Below the pieces are notes generated by a model, which was given only the letters and a program-made list of their open reading frames with translations, was not told the DNA's origin and made no database searches. The translations under genes and the position numbers were made by a program. Positions 6,731 to 33,789 of a DNA stretch of 64,000 nt are shown here, piece after piece. How positions within the stretch are numbered: the first letter of the stretch is position 1; every line of letters begins with the position of its first letter. The stretch lies in the NCBI GenBank assembly GCA_031292485.1, contig JARLHA010000020.1, positions 122,199-186,198 of the forward strand, in the 5' to 3' direction. Source of the DNA: Mucilaginibacter sp. (GTDB lineage: Bacteria; Bacteroidota; Bacteroidia; Sphingobacteriales; Sphingobacteriaceae).

Positions 6731-8569
6731 ATGAAATTGTTAATAAAGAACTTAATGAAACTGGTAAGTAAAATTAGTCATTTTGTTGGATTTGACAATC
6801 CGGAATTATCGTTGGAAAATAAACTTTTCAATGCAATCTGCCTGTTATTGGGTGTTAGCCTGTTAACCGGCCTTATTAATAACATCTTATTGGGGTTTCC
6901 GGTCTTATTAATTTTTGTTGAACTATTTATAGGTAGTTTTTGCGCACTTGCTTTTTACTGGAGCAGGTATGTGGCTTATAAGGAAAATATGTCCGTCGGT
7001 TTTATTACACTGGGAATCCTTTCGTTTATACCAGGATGGTTTTTTAACGGCGGCATCGAAGGGTCTTCTGTTCTTTCCGGGGTGTTTTTAGTCGTGCTGA
7101 TCATTATTTTGCTAAAGCGCAAATACCACCTTTTTTTTATAGCCCTTTTGATGGTTGTTTTTTTTGGTTGTTACTATATAGAAAAGCATTTTCCTGGCTT
7201 GACAATCCCAATTAAAAGCAAGGGCCAAAAAGAAGCTGACATAATTTCTTCAGCACTGTCCAATATCTTGTATGCTGGCTTATTAATCAGTTTTTTGAAA
7301 AGAAGCCATGAAAAAGATAAATTAAGGCTGATTAAGCAAAGTGAGGAATTACAGTTGTCGCAAATAGAACTGTCAGCCGCAAAAGACCAGGCAGAAGGGG
7401 CCACTGTCGCCAAATCGAACTTTTTAGCCAATATGAGTCACGAGATTCGCACCCCCTTAAATGGAATTATTGGTGCGGCGCAGCTATTGTCGCGGTCAGA
7501 TCTGTCAATGGAGCAGCATGAATTACTGCAAACGCTTCAATCCAGCAGTAACCTGCTCATCAACATCATCAGTGATATACTTGATCTTTCAAAAATCGAA
7601 GCCGATAAGCTTACGTTACATCCCAAACCTGTTAACATACGGTCATGTATAAAAACTGTATTTGAAATAAGCCAGCCGGGGATAACGGCGCCCGCAAAAA
7701 AGATTGACCTGCACTATACAATCGATGAAAATGTCGCCGAATGTTTAAAAATGGATGAAAGCCGGATTCAGCAAATATTGGTGAATTTGATTGGAAATGC
7801 CATTAAGTTTACGGACGACGGATTTGTTACGCTGAAGGTTTCAGCAATTAACAATCCTGATAATAAGCAACAGGTAACCTTCAGTGTTAAAGATACCGGT
7901 ATAGGGATCAGTGAAGAGGCACTGGCGCAATTATTCAAACCGTTTTCGCAGGTAAATAATACAGCCTTACGTAAATATGGCGGTACCGGCCTTGGTCTTT
8001 CCATCTGCAAAAAGCTGGTTGAAATGATGAACGGCAGAATTTGGGTTGAAAGTATAGAAACAGAAGGTTCGGTGTTTAGTTTTAGTTTACCATTGTCGGT
8101 GGCTTCTATAAACAAGGCCGTCGATGAAAAACCCGCCAATAGTGAGCGATACGAGTACAGACCCCTTGAAATATTGCTGGCCGAAGACAATAAAATGAAC
8201 CAATTAATTGCCAGGAAAACTTTCAATAAGATCGGCTATAACATTGATATTGCTGATAACGGCAGGATAGCTATCGAAATGCAGGAGCAAAAAAGATACG
8301 ATCTCATTTTTATGGATATACAAATGCCCGAAATGGACGGGCTGGAAGCTGCAGCCTTCATTATCAAAAAATATGGAAGCAGTGCACCGCCTATTATCGC
8401 CATGACGGCCAATGTGTTGAGTGAAGATGAAATTAAGTGTAAACAGGCAGGGATGAGAGATTTTATAAGTAAACCATTTACCATCGAACGCCTCGAAAAT
8501 GTTATTCATAAATGGGTACCGCAAAATGACGCTCAGAAAAACACCAACTATATTTTTGCCAATAATTGA
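6731..8569 (+). CDS. Hybrid sensor histidine kinase / response regulator
   Basis: A protein of 612 residues. Five to six hydrophobic segments lie in the first ~190 residues (integral membrane sensor without a large periplasmic loop), followed by a coiled-coil linker, HisKA with the phospho-acceptor His in [12 protein letters not shown] (about residue 237), HATPase_c (N box [10 protein letters not shown]1 DTGIGI, G2 GGTGLGLSI) and a C-terminal receiver (LLAEDN, phospho-Asp in [11 protein letters not shown], Lys in FISKPF). Phosphate would pass from His to the attached receiver; there is no output domain, so it must signal onward to another protein. A TTG at 6728 extends the frame by one codon, but ATG 6731 is preferred. 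The AraC gene downstream may or may not be a target. Confidence 0.9.
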
Positions 8570-27856: not shown

Positions 27857-29227
27857 ATGTTGCAAAGTAAATTCTTCAGTACCGACAGCGAAGTAACCCC
27901 GGCCAACCTGGGCGAAGCAATACAACAGGCCATCGAAATAGAGATTGCTACTATCCCTGTATATCTATATACCTATTATTCCATCAACCGCGTGCCCGAC
28001 CAGGATACAATAAGCGGTTCTCTTGTACAGGAACTTGTAAAAAGCGGCAAATCGCTTAAGGAGGCAAATAAGATCGCGTTAGATTTGTCAGCGGAGATTA
28101 TGGTATACGCCAATAAAGCCGGCGCCCTGATCATGAGCGTAGCGATTGAAGAAATGCTGCACATGGCGCTGTCTTCGAACCTGAAACAAGCCCTTGCTGG
28201 CCTGCCTGAACTGATAGGCAAATCACCCAGTGTATGGCCGGCATGCCTGCCCGGCCACGAGCCGGAATTTCCGATCAACAGGGCCAGGCTGTCGCTGGAT
28301 CAACTGGTAACTTTCCTGAAAATAGAGAGCCCCGACCCCTTACCGGATAAAAAATTACTGGCCGCGCCCATCCCCTATAAAACCATTGGATTGTTTTACA
28401 AGATGATTATGGATTGCATCGAAACCAATGACCTTCCATATAATACACATTCGCCGCAGTTATTGCCTGGCAATGCGTACTATGCCCAAAATAATATTGA
28501 CACCGTATATTACGATAAAGAGCATAACCCGCATTTTACCAATGCGGCCGATAGCGGCGACCTGTTGTACGTAAAAGACAGGGAATCAGCTATCCATGCT
28601 ATCCACTGCATAGTGGAACAGGGCGAGGGCTTTCCGGGCGCACAGGGATTTGATAAAGATGGCTGTGTGGATTGCGGGAAAATGATCCCGCCTGATTATG
28701 ATGATTTCGATAAAGAAGAGCTATCGCATTTTGAAAAGTTCGCGCAGATCTATTGTCACTATAAATCCTTAAATGAGCGGTTTAACAAACTTGGGATAGG
28801 TAAAATTGAGATCAGCGACTATTTTGTTATGAATGTGCCTGAAAACCCTTCAACGGCCGATTACCCGGCTCACATAAGGCCTGTTTCCGACTTTCTGAAT
28901 GGTGTATATACCTACTTATTTGTGATGGTTGAAAACTGCTACAAAAAATCGGGTAACACGCAGTATGAGCTGTTTATGTTCGGCATTCATAAGTCGATGA
29001 TATTTATATTGAATTCTGTTTGCGGGGATATCATGAAACTAAAATATAAGTCGCATAAAGATGGAAAAGAATATTTCGCGGCGCCAACATTTGAGGATTA
29101 TCCTTTCGGGTTAATTTCGAGCCCGAAATCACAACTGATAGATCTTTATACTGCCGCTGTAGCCGTGTATCCTGCCATCAGCTATCTTGGGCAAAGGGTG
29201 CAGGACCTGCCTGATGTAGGATTATAA
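27857..29227 (+). CDS. Ferritin-like di-iron protein, first gene of MNIO cluster
   Basis: A protein of 456 residues. The N-terminal ferritin-like domain (PF12902/VioB-type) shows a full set of di-iron ligands: E27/E29 in AIEIEIATIPVYLYTYY, E99-x-x-H102 in AIEEMLHMALSSN, E254 in CIVEQGEG, and E288-x-x-H291 in EELSHFEKF. The C-terminal ~150 residues are helical. A CVDCGK pair lies at ~270-274. In violacein-type pathways a related domain (VioB/StaD) makes an imine dimer, but here the gene leads into a Cys-rich peptide precursor and a DUF692 oxidase, so peptide oxidation or iron supply is more plausible (inference). The next gene starts 61 bases later. Confidence 0.82.
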   Translation: MLQSKFFSTDSEVTPANLGEAIQQAIEIEIATIPVYLYTYYSINRVPDQDTISGSLVQELVKSGKSLKEANKIALDLSAEIMVYANKAGALIMSVAIEEMLHMALSSNLKQALAGLPELIGKSPSVWPACLPGHEPEFPINRARLSLDQLVTFLKIESPDPLPDKKLLAAPIPYKTIGLFYKMIMDCIETNDLPYNTHSPQLLPGNAYYAQNNIDTVYYDKEHNPHFTNAADSGDLLYVKDRESAIHAIHCIVEQGEGFPGAQGFDKDGCVDCGKMIPPDYDDFDKEELSHFEKFAQIYCHYKSLNERFNKLGIGKIEISDYFVMNVPENPSTADYPAHIRPVSDFLNGVYTYLFVMVENCYKKSGNTQYELFMFGIHKSMIFILNSVCGDIMKLKYKSHKDGKEYFAAPTFEDYPFGLISSPKSQLIDLYTAAVAVYPAISYLGQRVQDLPDVGL

Positions 29228-29288
29228 ACTAAAAAGGAAATTTTAACACGACAATCATTAACAGATAACAACGACAAAACAGCATATT

Positions 29289-29888
29289 ATGGCTAACATA
29301 AATTACAATCAAAATTTATCATTGTGCGGAGGCACTCCACCGGCACCAGCGCCGGCCGAAGGGGCCGGTGCCGCTCCCGCGATTGCCACGCCATCGATTG
29401 AACTTCACGTTTGCATGGGATTAAACGCCTGTAAAGGGCACGACCGTAACGGAACCAACAATTGTGCAGGCACGGGGTATTGTGCCACTGCTACCCGGCA
29501 TAACTGCCAGACTTTGAACGATTGCCACGGGCAGGGGGGCTGCGGGCTTTACGGCGACGCGGAGCAACAAATGCTGCCCGGCGCAAACGAATGCGGCTGG
29601 CAGGGCAGCTGTGCCGTACCCATCCAGGCCGAACGGTATAGCACTTTAGGAGAAAACACAGGGAAAAGCGTATGGCTGCTTGCCCGCAAACTATTTGAAG
29701 AGCGGATGATGAAAGCAAAAAGGTCCGTTGGTGAACCCCCTTTTAAATGCGGGCCGCCTGAAAACTGGCTTACATCGGTTTTGGGTTCTTATGATTCATG
29801 TGGTAACAGCGGTGACAAACGTTGTTCATTTGGCTTTAATAACCCGGACGACCATGCAAAGGAGTTATGTGAAGGAAAGAAAGAGTAA
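29289..29888 (+). CDS. Cys-rich bufferin-like RiPP precursor candidate
   Basis: A protein of 199 residues with 14 Cys (13, 42, 48, 59, 65, 73, 79, 85, 102, 108, 154, 171, 179, 194). Residues 1-40 are a leader-like Ala/Pro/Gly-rich stretch without a signal peptide. Residues 42-108 hold five C-x5-C motifs (CMGLNAC, CAGTGYC, CQTLNDC, CHGQGGC, CGWQGSC) rich in Gly, Asn and His, resembling the C-x-G-x-N-x-C-K-G core of BufA2-type bufferins. A C-terminal extension (109-199) has an amphipathic helix and four more Cys. It sits between a di-iron protein and a DUF692 (MNIO) gene. Role as the modified substrate is inferred from composition and position. Its size and missing signal peptide are unusual for bufferins. 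Confidence 0.72.
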   Translation: MANINYNQNLSLCGGTPPAPAPAEGAGAAPAIATPSIELHVCMGLNACKGHDRNGTNNCAGTGYCATATRHNCQTLNDCHGQGGCGLYGDAEQQMLPGANECGWQGSCAVPIQAERYSTLGENTGKSVWLLARKLFEERMMKAKRSVGEPPFKCGPPENWLTSVLGSYDSCGNSGDKRCSFGFNNPDDHAKELCEGKKE

Positions 29889-29988
29889 AATTGTGTTTAA
29901 GCCGATTGGGTTAGTGGTTGATTAAGTTTCAGTTGTTAATTTTATAATATTTACGACTACTATATCCGGTATAGCAAAAAAAACAATA

Positions 29989-30930
29989 ATGATTAAAAAA
30001 AGGGATCAATATCGCGAGATTATTAATGCCCTGCCTAACCCGGGCCTGGGATTAGGTTTAAGGAGTAAACATTTTAACTACATCCTTGAGCATAATCCTG
30101 CGGTTGATTGGTTTGAAGTAATTTCGGAAAACTTTATGGATTCCGGCGGAAGGCCCCGGCATATTTTAAGGCAGGTAGCTGAAAGATACCCCCTGGTAAT
30201 GCATGGTGTGTCGCTTTCTATCGGCAGTACAGATCCGCTGAATAAGGAGTATCTCGGTAAATTGAAATCCCTTGCAGCGGAAGTAAAGCCGCTTTGGATA
30301 AGTGATCATTTATGCTGGACAGGGGTGAACAGCCTGAATACGCACGATCTGCTTCCTGTTTTACTGAACGAAGAATCATTAAAACATATTTGCTCGCGGA
30401 TTCGCATTGCCCAGGATTTTATGGAACGGCCGCTGGTGTTTGAAAATCCCAGTACTTACCTTACGTTTAAGCAATCCACAATACCCGAGTGGGAATTTTT
30501 AAAGTATATGGCCGAAGAAACAGGCTGTGGTTTATTGCTCGACGTGAATAATGTATTTGTATCGGCTTTTAACAATGATTTTGACCCTGTTAATTACATC
30601 AACCAATTACCGCACGACCGTATCGTACAAATGCACATAGCCGGGCACCAGCATTGCGGCGACTATATTATTGATACCCACGACCGCAACGTAGTACGGG
30701 AGGTGTGGAAGCTATTTAGCCAAGCCTGGCAGCTTACCGGTGGCGTAGCTACCTTACTTGAATGGGATAGCAATATTCCCGAATTTGACGTTTACCATGC
30801 CGAACTGTTGAAAGCAAAACAATATATGAACCGTATGACCGGGTATGATTTGGATGCAGATGTACAGAACTATTTGGACGCAGCAGTTTCAAACCCGGTC
30901 GATTTTTTAGTGAATGATTTTAAATGGTGA
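29989..30930 (+). CDS. DUF692 / MNIO multinuclear iron-dependent oxidase
   Basis: A protein of 313 residues and a full-length TIM-barrel DUF692 member. Ligand-type residues of the family are all visible: GLGLRSKHF, EVISENFM (E43/E47), H72 in MHGVSLSIGS, D106/H107 in SDHLCW, E152 in FENPSTY, D185-x-N-N in LLLDVNNVFVS, H216/H220 in MHIAGHQ, D229/H231 in DTHDRNV, and E258 in LLEWD. MNIO enzymes (MbnB, TglH, BufB) use two or three irons to oxidise Cys or other residues in peptides, forming oxazolone/thioamide or thio-oxazole groups. Next to a Cys-rich peptide it is very likely the modifying enzyme. The DUF2063 partner overlaps its 3' end. Confidence 0.93.
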   Translation: MIKKRDQYREIINALPNPGLGLGLRSKHFNYILEHNPAVDWFEVISENFMDSGGRPRHILRQVAERYPLVMHGVSLSIGSTDPLNKEYLGKLKSLAAEVKPLWISDHLCWTGVNSLNTHDLLPVLLNEESLKHICSRIRIAQDFMERPLVFENPSTYLTFKQSTIPEWEFLKYMAEETGCGLLLDVNNVFVSAFNNDFDPVNYINQLPHDRIVQMHIAGHQHCGDYIIDTHDRNVVREVWKLFSQAWQLTGGVATLLEWDSNIPEFDVYHAELLKAKQYMNRMTGYDLDADVQNYLDAAVSNPVDFLVNDFKW

Positions 30931-31759
30931 AAGACGCCGGGTTAATGATATTATGATAGAAAGCAACGATATTTCCTTACCCCAACTCCAAAACTGGATG
31001 CAAGGAATACTTGTTAAAGGTCGCCCATCAGCCGACGAGCGGATGACAATAGAGTCAGTCGTAAATCAATCCCAAAGATTAAGTGCTTTACGGCATTTAA
31101 ATATTTACCGGAGCAGTTATATCGCCAGGTTAAGGGCCTGTATGCAAAATCAGTTTGTCGCCCTTGCCTATGCGCTGGGTGCCGGACTTTTTGAATCGTT
31201 TGCAGATCAATACCTTGATTCGTACCCTTCAGAAAGTTATACCCTTAATACGCTTGGTGAAAAGTTTCCGGCATTTTTAGAAAAGACCCGCCCTGACGCA
31301 AGTCTGGAACAAAAAGAAAGCTGGCCCGATTTCATCATTGAACTGGCGGGGTTTGAATACAGGCTTTCAGAAATTTTTGATCAGGAAGCCGCCGGAGACC
31401 AAATGGTTTTAACGCCAAATACGCCTGATAATTTATTGAAGCTTACCCCGGTATTGCACCTGTTTCATCATCAATTCCCAATTTGTCAGTATTACCTTGA
31501 TTTTATTCAAAATAAAGAACCGGACCTGCCATTTCCCGGAAAAACCTATTGCGCGGTCACCAGGAGGGATTATAAACTGGGCCTGTTTGTTATCAGGGGA
31601 GCGCAGTATCATTTCCTCAAAAGTATGCAGGAAGGGAAATCAGTGAAGAAGTCAATGAAATACCTTGCCAAAAATTTTGAATTTAAAATAGAAGATCTTG
31701 AAAAAATATGGCCTGAATGGAAAAGTACTTTTATCGCTTCAGGCTTTTTGAGTGTTTAA
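30914..31759 (+). CDS. DUF2063 (BufC/HvfC-like) partner of the MNIO
   Basis: About 281 residues. It opens LPQLQNWMQGILV and contains RLSALRHLNIYRSSYIARLRACMQNQFVALAYALG, the signature of DUF2063, the usual companion of DUF692 enzymes, which binds the precursor leader and delivers it. The C-terminal part (from ~190) looks like the winged-helix/RRE-like half. The frame can start at ATG 30914, overlapping the MNIO gene by 17 bases, or at ATG 30953 (MIESND), 22 bases after the MNIO stop; the second avoids a basic N-terminal tail and may be the real one. Either way it is co-transcribed with the MNIO. Confidence 0.85.
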   Translation: MILNGERRRVNDIMIESNDISLPQLQNWMQGILVKGRPSADERMTIESVVNQSQRLSALRHLNIYRSSYIARLRACMQNQFVALAYALGAGLFESFADQYLDSYPSESYTLNTLGEKFPAFLEKTRPDASLEQKESWPDFIIELAGFEYRLSEIFDQEAAGDQMVLTPNTPDNLLKLTPVLHLFHHQFPICQYYLDFIQNKEPDLPFPGKTYCAVTRRDYKLGLFVIRGAQYHFLKSMQEGKSVKKSMKYLAKNFEFKIEDLEKIWPEWKSTFIASGFLSV

Positions 31760-32493: not shown

Positions 32494-33789
32494 TCAACTG
32501 AAAATGGTATAAAACATGGCCACAGCCGCTGCTCCCATCGCTATAAAGGTTATCCAAAGAATAGTTTTCGAAATCGCTTTACTCTTAAATTCTCCCATTA
32601 TAGCTTCATCCGACGAAATTTTCAGGATCAAAAATAAAAGGGGAACAGCGGCCACGCCATTTAATACTGCCGCGTAAACCAAAGCTTTAACAGGGTTAAC
32701 CCCGATAAAATTCAGCAACAGGCCAACAAGCGTCGCCGCAATAATGATGAGGTAAAAACCTTTTGCTTTGCCAAATTTTAAATTCAGGCTGGCTTTCCAG
32801 TTAAAGGCATTTGCCACGGAGTAGGCCGCTGAGCCTGACAGTACAGGAATAGCCAGCATACCCAGGCCGATAATGCCGATTGAAAATATGAGTTTAGATA
32901 AAAAGCCGGCATGCGGGAAGGTATCCACCAGCGGCTCAATAGCTTTTGCAGCATCAGCGGCGGTATTGATGTTTTTAATGCCGCTATTGTGTAATACAGT
33001 TGCTGCGACAACTATGATGCTCCAGGTAGCAAATTCTGAGAAGATCATGCCAGACGCATTATCCAGTCGCATCTTATCGACGCTTAATGCACTGATCAGC
33101 GGTTTTCCCGTTTTTTTAATTAATTTTTTTTCTTTGTCCTCTTCTACCTCCTGGGATGATTCCCAAAAAAACATGTACGGTGAAATAGTGGTACCTAAAA
33201 CGCCCGTTATTATAAAAAGAAACGCAAATGAAAATTCAAAATGGGGGATAACAGTGGCCTTTAGAATAGTGCCCCAGGGCTGATTTACGATAAATACAGT
33301 TATCGGGTATGCCAGCAAAGTAAGCGCCAGCCATTTTAATATTTTTGCATATACTTTATAATTGGTAAACACTTCGAGTATTAAAATTATGCTGGTGAAA
33401 AATAAGGTGAGCAAAATAAATGATGCGGGCACCAGCAGTTGGGCGGCTGCCGCCATCGCGCCAAGGTCGGCACCGATGTTGATGGTATTTGCAACGACAA
33501 CCAACCCCACCACCGCATATAATACGCTCTTGCTGTAGCGCTCCCGAACAATGGTGGTTATACCTTTACCGGTTACCAGCCCTATCCTTGCACAGGCTTC
33601 CTGCACGGCGATCATTAAAGGAAGCATGTAAAGAGCGGTCCATAATTGCCCATAACCAAACTGGGCGCCTGTTTGTGAATAAGTGGCTATTCCTGAAGGG
33701 TCATCGTCAGCGGCTCCTGTTACCAGGCCGGGGCCGAGTTTACGCCAAAAACCTTTAACTTTCGCGGTAATCTCGGTTTCTTGTTTCAT
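32494..33789 (-). CDS. Nramp-related divalent metal transporter
   Basis: A protein of 431 residues with about eleven membrane helices. The order LGPGLVTGAADDDPSGIATYSQTGAQFGYGQLW and the following PLMIAVQEACARIGLVTGKG match the Nramp family. The TM1 metal-binding motif is DPSG instead of the canonical DPGN, and TM6 reads ISPYMFFWESSQEVEED in place of the usual A-x-x-MPH segment. This suggests a sub-group with different ion choice, for example the NRMT-like magnesium branch; this is inference. It lies next to the DUF4142 gene and the MNIO cluster. Confidence 0.87.
   Translation of the reverse strand: MKQETEITAKVKGFWRKLGPGLVTGAADDDPSGIATYSQTGAQFGYGQLWTALYMLPLMIAVQEACARIGLVTGKGITTIVRERYSKSVLYAVVGLVVVANTINIGADLGAMAAAAQLLVPASFILLTLFFTSIILILEVFTNYKVYAKILKWLALTLLAYPITVFIVNQPWGTILKATVIPHFEFSFAFLFIITGVLGTTISPYMFFWESSQEVEEDKEKKLIKKTGKPLISALSVDKMRLDNASGMIFSEFATWSIIVVAATVLHNSGIKNINTAADAAKAIEPLVDTFPHAGFLSKLIFSIGIIGLGMLAIPVLSGSAAYSVANAFNWKASLNLKFGKAKGFYLIIIAATLVGLLLNFIGVNPVKALVYAAVLNGVAAVPLLFLILKISSDEAIMGEFKSKAISKTILWITFIAMGAAAVAMFYTIFS

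Follow-up and report, generated by a model that had tools for sequence, protein, structure and literature searches.

We analyzed a window of 64,000 nucleotides from a Mucilaginibacter genome (contig JARLHA010000020.1 of assembly GCA_031292485.1), to which all positions below refer. Between positions 27857 and 31759, four genes lie on the plus strand, in agreement with a preliminary description of this DNA. The first encodes a 456-aa ferritin-like dimetal protein of the family PF12902 (FER; 27857–29227; 120 bits, cut-off 22.3), and the second a 199-aa, Buf2-like protein with 14 Cys residues (CYS; 29289–29888), the predicted substrate of the third gene product. This third protein is a 313-aa multinuclear iron oxidase of the DUF692 family (MNIO; 29989–30930; PF05114, 357 bits), a BufB-like predicted maturase. 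The fourth is a 281-aa DUF2063 partner of PME-type 1 (30914–31759; PF09836, 57 bits, cut-off 27.2), whose translation may instead begin at 30953, where the frame has a further ATG. FER and CYS are separated by 61 bases and CYS and MNIO by 100 bases, while the MNIO and DUF2063 genes overlap by 17 bases. Consensus scans detected no terminator-like or promoter-like site in the FER–CYS and CYS–MNIO gaps; over the window such sites occurred at chance level (9 promoter-like versus 10.2 expected, 3 terminator-like versus 5.7 expected). The Bacteroidota-type promoter pattern was found 8 times versus 4.9 expected, and none of these sites was upstream of the four genes, which form one module.

The preliminary description had proposed a single four-gene pathway and suggested searching relatives for the same gene order. 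Using CYS alone as the query, we collected 112 loci, and in all of the best 80 the order FER–CYS–MNIO was kept on one strand. The DUF2063 gene was present in 79 of these 80, and the remaining contig ends before it. The 80 loci belong to Bacteroidota, Pseudomonadota, Acidobacteriota, and Actinomycetota. The arrangement is far beyond chance and supports the pathway proposal. Among 296 Bacteroidota genomes, window-type FER and CYS occurred in the same genomes and were adjacent in 4/4 cases. Among 399 genomes of the window's family, both matched the same nine genomes, adjacent in 9/9, of which seven were read as loci.

FER and CYS are separate genes in most of the 80 best loci (67/80) and form one polypeptide in the other 13. 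A second, fused branch (type II, as opposed to the type I loci above) was found in 21 of the 399 genomes, with MNIO and DUF2063 in 21/21. Type II loci were picked from weak matches by an open frame of about 680–770 aa, which selected 23 places, 21 of them modules and the other two L136 and L137, so that their fused state is partly a result of this choice. The plasmid locus L003 also encodes FER and CYS as one chain, bringing the fused loci to 35. No single ORF in the scan and type II loci matched both FER and MNIO. Fusions of FER with CYS, without fusions of FER with MNIO, are what a lasting FER–CYS unit predicts. They are no proof of such a unit, because in borosins a tailoring enzyme is fused to its own substrate. 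The ferritin-like protein had been described as attached to the cluster: it does belong to the module, but it is not an add-on, often sharing one chain with CYS.

We also asked whether such ferritin-like genes occur without DUF692. For PF12902 at large they do (5 of 9 places in the 296-genome Bacteroidota draw), whereas the window-type subfamily kept to CYS in the 4/4 and 9/9 cases above. Against the window-type FER profile, four of those five scored at most 129 bits and one gave no match, compared with at least 472 bits for full-length module members. A CYS-like substrate gene was absent from the ten other PF12902 places that we read, and the five read outside the module in the 399-genome draw (L136–L140) had neither MNIO nor CYS. 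Two of these, L136 and L137, resemble the module in that a ferritin-like domain is joined to a Cys-rich metal-cofactor domain; they differ from it in lacking an MNIO and in their Cys-rich part, which we take to consist of CDGSH-like iron–sulphur motifs.

The full E/ExxH ligand set previously noted in FER was confirmed. The predicted metal ligands, all encoded on the plus strand, are E29 in helix 1 (codon 27941–27943), E99 and H102 of the ExxH motif E99-M-L-H102 in helix 2 (28151–28162), E257 of a QGEG motif in helix 3 (28625–28627), and E288 and H291 of E288-L-S-H291 in helix 4 (28718–28729). E29 is conserved in 79 of 82 aligned rows, E99, H102, and E257 in 82/82, and E288 and H291 in 81/82 each. 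The label "VioB-type" held at the level of PF12902, to which FER belongs by its Pfam score above the cut-off and by its fold, but likeness to VioB itself is weak: window FER scored 19.2 bits against the iminophenyl-pyruvate dimer synthase model TIGR04492 (cut-off 1250), and the VioB matches spanned 19–33 bits. A PDB sequence search with window FER alone gave no match, while a FER profile recovered 3hl1 (Caulobacter CC_0557), a member of this VioB/RebD-type family with the same fold and a similar ligand pattern. An iron-storage ferritin is disfavoured, 3hl1 being the best fold match and cage ferritins far below it among the families listed. A FER tree was built from three groups of module loci, namely separate type I (22), fused (10), and type II (7), plus 8 other sequences (L064, L067, and L080 omitted). 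In it, FER formed a branch distinct from the eight other PF12902 proteins (SH-aLRT 98) and linked to the MNIO system, with long branches; this tree and the MNIO tree below were both quick and contain numerous weak forks.

The Cys core of CYS, C42–C108 (29412–29612, plus strand), is built of C-x5-C units and is the likely modification target. C73, C79, C85, C102, and C108 were present in 82/82 rows and C42, C48, C59, and C65 in 81/82. C-terminal to the core, a conserved non-Cys stretch, S127–R145 (29667–29723, plus strand; W129, A132, R133, and F136 in 81/82 rows), is absent from the Buf2-type precursors compared. Window CYS gave no match in a Pfam scan, searches of PHROGs and plasmids with CYS also gave none, and the score against the BufA2 model NF050166 was 19.8 bits, far under the cut-off of 60. 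However, 28 of 34 family members matched that model at E ≤ 0.01 (best 2.4e-7), and hhalign of CYS against five Buf2-type precursors gave 95.4% with E 1.8e-8. Judged by these profile comparisons, the CYS domain is a divergent relative of bufferin 2. By a crude hydrophobicity measure over the first 45 residues, all but one of the 68 separate CYS proteins showed no signal-like N-terminus (67 at most 1.8; L045, 1.95), compared with 1.86–2.68 in seven signal-bearing-looking controls, and CYS thus lacks the Sec-like signal of a bufferin 2 precursor by this measure. Among 79 FER proteins, only L061 and L056 exceeded 1.8, both with overlong ORF starts. The Cys core was modelled at low confidence in two models (pLDDT block means 33–64 in a type II fusion and 34–71 in the other). 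In the type II fusion model (pTM 0.88), residues 611–695, behind the core, reached a pLDDT of about 74–89, hinting that this tail may pack on the enzyme.

The window MNIO scored 357 bits against the BufB model NF050167 (cut-off 310) and is thus a BufB-type MNIO as in bufferin 2. The MNIO tree drew on all 13 fused loci, on 8 of the 22 type II loci, and on 46 of the separate type I loci, which number 68 when the window is added to the 67 from the scan. These 67 FER-linked MNIOs formed a single branch (SH-aLRT 97), whose sister comprised MNIOs with signal-bearing Buf2-like precursors. DUF2063 (PF09836) was matched at E ≤ 0.01 in 78 of 78 partners scanned, three of them type II; L011, L022, L023, L036 (cut), L060 (overlong ORF), L034 (none), L001, and L003 were omitted. 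It is by this match that we class the window partner as the DUF2063-RRE protein (PME-type 1) expected of bufferin 2; against the HvfC model NF050145 it scored 46.6 bits, under the cut-off of 142. In PMC13097082 and PMC12452194, installation of 5-thiooxazoles is reported for MNIOs whose partner is of PME-type 1, as is copper binding by peptides of this kind.

The closest known system is bufferin 2 (BufA2/BufB/BufC; Buf_6/12Cys), with which the module shares a BufB-like MNIO above the NCBIfam cut-off, a DUF2063 partner, the order precursor–MNIO–partner, and a homologous C-x5-C domain. The module differs in that CYS lacks a Sec-like signal, has nine core Cys kept in 81–82 of 82 rows together with its conserved C-terminal part, and comes with a ferritin-like protein as neighbour or fused domain in each of the best 80 of 112 loci. 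DoxX is described in PMC12452194 as frequent in bufferin clusters. Of the "bufferin/methanobactin-type" core named in the preliminary description, only the bufferin half stood. A methanobactin-type pathway was rejected: the MNIO scored 47 bits against the MbnB model TIGR04159 (cut-off 325), the partner is a DUF2063 protein, and the precursor has 199 aa versus the short MbnA.

Two further groups come into comparison. The captophorins, copper peptides with 5-thiooxazoles (PMC13097082), likewise combine an MNIO, a PME1 partner, and a Cys-rich substrate, but the three precursor categories given in the excerpts of that paper (DUF2282, Lys-Cys repeats, and Cys-Lys motifs) do not fit CYS, and those excerpts, unlike the module, contain no ferritin-like gene. 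The putative precursors of the adjamnio-I group (Table 2 of PMC12452194) resemble CYS in having no signal peptide, 122–293 aa, 8–21 Cys, and a position upstream of the MNIO. Their reported partners are of PME-type 2, whereas the module partners carry DUF2063 in 78/78 and did not class as PME-type 2; ferritin is absent from the main text of PMC12452194. CYS, set apart from this group by description and not by alignment, may still overlap with it.

How these four proteins might act together is best accounted for, in our view, by a module that makes a cytoplasmic two-part metalloenzyme, in which the modified CYS domain stays with the ferritin-like dimetal oxidase; we regard this reading as close to evenly balanced. 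In its favour are the gene order, the co-occurrence, the fusions, the Buf2 relationship of CYS, the missing signal-like stretch, and the single branch of FER-linked MNIOs; it is weakened by the low-confidence models of the Cys core, the predominance of separate FER and CYS genes, the low BufA2 score of window CYS, and a neighbourhood in which no recurrent copper-related family was recognized. We infer the modification, the metal, and the reaction of the module product. MNIO and its DUF2063 partner would convert several Cys residues of the bufferin-2-like domain into copper-binding 5-thiooxazoles, where the choice of Cys, the product, and copper are all presumed. The modified domain would remain bound, in the cytoplasm, to the ferritin-like oxidase, as neighbour or fusion partner, and might support its active site by relaying electrons, by donating metal, or by sensing metal. 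Because FER either adjoins CYS, whose cysteines are the predicted target, or shares one chain with it, a metal site built into an intracellular enzyme is likely, rather than a released peptide. The substrate of the RiPP-like cluster in the preliminary description looks like a protein domain that is kept and not like a released peptide. More tentatively, a thiooxazole–copper center in this domain may be the second metal site of the oxidase, within one polypeptide or complex, a new kind of cofactor; RiPP chemistry would then build a cofactor into a protein instead of yielding a peptide, and would do so across at least four phyla.

Instead of keeping CYS as a part, FER could be a second tailoring enzyme that further oxidizes CYS or its MNIO-made heterocycles, acting in cis where the two are fused and in trans where they are separate. 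O2-using relatives in PF12902 such as VioB function in natural product routes, and this precedent (at matches of 19–33 bits), the conserved complete dimetal ligand set, and the pairing of FER with CYS across the sampled genomes all speak for it. A catalyst, however, needs no 1:1 chain with its substrate, yet 35 loci are fused; no recurrent family in the module neighbourhoods fits a dedicated protease or exporter, and no such substrate gene was found at the ten other PF12902 places. We consider this account unlikely, though still a real competitor. FER might also supply or buffer iron for the MNIO cofactor. MNIOs require iron, FER has a ferritin-like fold and a dimetal ligand pattern, and of the 82 loci compared, nine, including that of the window, have an Nramp transporter nearby; even so, we give this very little weight.

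Somewhat less improbable is that the FER domain chiefly serves in recognition, as a folded stand-in for the Sec signal peptide or leader, which would let a PME-type 1 partner present a cytoplasmic substrate. According to PMC12452194, PME-type 1 partners accompany signal-peptide precursors; here DUF2063 is found in 78/78 partners while CYS is signal-less, and FER occupies the leader position in the fusions. A docking domain, however, has no need of strictly conserved dimetal ligands, and the separate FER genes would have to work in trans. An ordinary bufferin operon beside an unrelated gene fits the MNIO score above the BufB cut-off but neither the 35 fused loci nor a CYS without a signal-like N-terminus, and we think it scarcely credible; barring badly biased sampling, a stray neighbour is ruled out by the gene order in 80/80 (best 80 of 112) loci and the 9/9 and 4/4 co-occurrence.

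The MNIO systems studied in most detail yield peptides for copper binding outside the cytoplasm, or else small products that are secreted. The MNIO substrate of the module seems instead to be retained; it is signal-less despite a signal-peptide-type partner, and it adjoins or is fused to a dimetal enzyme. If the two-part metalloenzyme reading is true, MNIOs also produce protein-borne metal cofactors. The module would then be a large exception to the published rule that ties PME-type 1 partners to signal peptides, and an entire PF12902 branch, so far named only ferritin-like, would gain a testable function. The natural FER–CYS fusions, for instance that of Collimonas humicola (L078), are ready single-chain constructs.

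Among the matches listed in openly licensed full texts, without supplements, no paper paired an MNIO or DUF692 protein with a ferritin-like protein. One of the listed papers, PMC8224329, contains both terms, but its matching passages report copper-induced DUF692 operons of Caulobacter and have ferritin solely in a reference title; those of PMC4417212 report PF12902 genes near fungal lodA-like genes, with no MNIO. Most neighbours of the module were clustered but unnamed, and no recurrent copper-related family was recognized among them. A THAP4-like barrel gene recurs in 11 type I loci. As a heme barrel partner it was rejected: its Pfam scores fell short of 25, the cut-off (L043, 22.2; L079, 20.2; L066, 17.9), L030, L078, L107, and L132 gave no Pfam match, and the barrel also adjoins PF12902 genes without MNIO (L107 and L139).

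The window was confirmed to carry four open reading frames (ORFs) on one strand at 27857–31759; 61 bases separate the first from the second and 100 bases the second from the third, and the last two overlap by 17 bases. In Pfam, the products matched ferritin-like PF12902 (FER; 120 bits), PF05114 (DUF692, the predicted iron oxidase MNIO; 357 bits) and PF09836 (the DUF2063 partner; 57 bits), and the Cys-rich 199-residue protein (CYS) matched no Pfam family. Against NCBIfam, the MNIO exceeded the cut-off of 310 of the bufferin maturase model NF050167 (357 bits), and CYS matched BufA2 only faintly (19.8 bits, below the cut-off of 60). Flanking the module are an acyltransferase and a DUF4142 protein on the opposite strand. 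A Nramp-family metal transporter (32494–33789, minus strand) lies close to it. Comparison of 82 loci showed this family near the module in 9, including several from Mucilaginibacter, perhaps through plain synteny. Outside the four genes, every neighbouring family was limited to 17 or fewer of the 82 loci.

Among 760 candidates, 484 were relatives of CYS at E ≤ 0.001. Selecting loci through CYS alone, with one genome per species, gave 112 relatives. The analysis retained the best 80 loci (44 Bacteroidota, 30 Pseudomonadota, 4 Acidobacteriota and 2 Actinomycetota). FER, CYS and MNIO followed in this order on a single strand in all 80, and DUF2063 was also present in 79, the exception (L034) being a contig that stops within the MNIO gene; the four-gene order proposed in the preliminary description is thus a conserved module. 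In a draw of 296 Bacteroidota genomes, PF12902 occurred at 9 places, PF05114 at 21 and CYS at 5. Each of the four strong CYS places had PF12902 upstream and an MNIO downstream, and the fifth (L108) encodes a precursor of 99 residues that resembles bufferin 2 and begins with a signal-like stretch. Of the remaining five PF12902 places, four scored at most 129 bits on the FER profile and one did not match, against at least 472 bits for full-length module FER; none had an MNIO within the stretch read, and 17 of the 21 MNIO places lacked a nearby PF12902 gene. Among 399 genomes of Sphingobacteriaceae, strong CYS matches and FER matches above 530 bits fell in the same nine, a patchy distribution for this module (type I); CYS adjoined FER by position in all nine, seven of which were also read as loci.

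FER and CYS formed a single ORF in 13 of the best 80 loci (9 Pseudomonadota, 2 Acidobacteriota, 2 Actinomycetota). A second, fused branch (type II) was first met on a Pseudoalteromonas plasmid (L003) and in one further genome (G583, L110). Of 23 weak matches from the 399-genome draw with open frames of about 680–770 residues, 21 were FER–CYS fusions, each followed by MNIO and DUF2063. This choice by frame length would let separate type II genes escape; the other open frames listed for weak matches included none of the corresponding length (about 500 residues). At E ≤ 0.001, a search with the type II protein gave 906 matches; for many, the similarity may be confined to the ferritin-like part. 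Source names among those listed include Acidobacteriota and Bacteroidota. The CYS profile matched 121 of 122 proteins (120 listed matches, the query and the L003 protein), and P0286 (513 residues) visibly stops short of the tail. No ORF matched FER and MNIO together in the scan loci or the 399-genome-draw loci read. Two ORFs without a Pfam family (698–1360 and 1419–2981 in L131) recur near type II fusions, in 7 and 8 of 21 loci.

The CYS core is built of regular C-x5-C units, followed C-terminally by a conserved non-Cys part. C73, C79, C85, C102 and C108 were kept in all 82 aligned rows and C42, C48, C59 and C65 in 81; alignments read by eye gave type II counterparts for seven of these nine. 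BufA2 was matched at E ≤ 0.01 by 28 of 34 CYS members, 12 of the 34 being fusions. In profile comparisons, CYS matched five bufferin-2-type precursors (probability 95.4%, E 1.8e-8) and the type II tail (98.0%, E 1.6e-13). In a simple scan of hydrophobicity, values stayed at or below 1.8 for 67 of the 68 separate CYS proteins and for 77 of the 79 FER proteins, against 1.86–2.68 for seven neighbouring-family precursors that look signal-bearing.

The 67 FER-linked MNIOs in a tree of 80 all fell on one branch (SH-aLRT 97). Three MNIOs from Bacteroidota whose Buf2-like precursors bear signals adjoin this branch, and type II MNIOs were one clade inside it (SH-aLRT 99). The fused or separate state changed at least five times on this quick tree with many weak forks, and the FER tree requires fewer changes. 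DUF2063 was found at E ≤ 0.01 in all 78 partner proteins scanned. PMC12452194 links partners of this kind (PME-type 1) to precursors that carry a signal peptide, and the module is therefore an exception. The same paper describes adjamnio-I, which by its description resembles CYS in size and Cys count, with PME-type 2 partners, whereas those of the module carry DUF2063. The parts of the module are known; among the openly licensed papers listed, our literature search found no text describing FER with an MNIO.

In the most likely mechanism, MNIO and DUF2063 are predicted by family analogy to oxidise CYS cysteines to thiooxazoles, and the modified domain may bind copper. Since FER and CYS occur fused, this domain would remain with FER, whose dimetal site could, judging from ligands and fold, perform an oxidation. 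FER might alternatively provide a second tailoring step, or act as a recognition domain replacing the signal peptide. A third alternative, iron supply by FER, fits least well with fusions that involve CYS only.

PF12902 also occurs in other contexts. Proteins at L136 (2989–5031) and L137 (5148–7190) carry it fused to two CDGSH-like iron–sulphur motifs (CRCGGSxNKPFCDGTH); MNIO is absent at both, and they parallel the module fusions in joining a ferritin-like domain to a metal-cofactor domain. In several loci (L043, 7751–8605; L063, 856–1953; L079 and L080, both 7051–8412), the gene directly upstream of FER encodes a protein with weak similarity to the THAP4 heme-binding barrel; such a protein also adjoins PF12902 genes without MNIO (L107, L139).

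Very short signal-bearing precursors, 80 residues long and with four Cys in CK-type motifs, sit near MNIOs of Bacteroidota that group close to the branch of the module (L088, 2352–2594; L089, 357–599). The window's own genome holds a second, very different MNIO of 487 residues with a C-terminal extension, behind two small related ORFs (L002; 817–2280, 2299–2547 and 2726–2992). The small ORF nearer to it has a GCPTC (CxxC) motif, and this locus is possibly another RiPP cluster.
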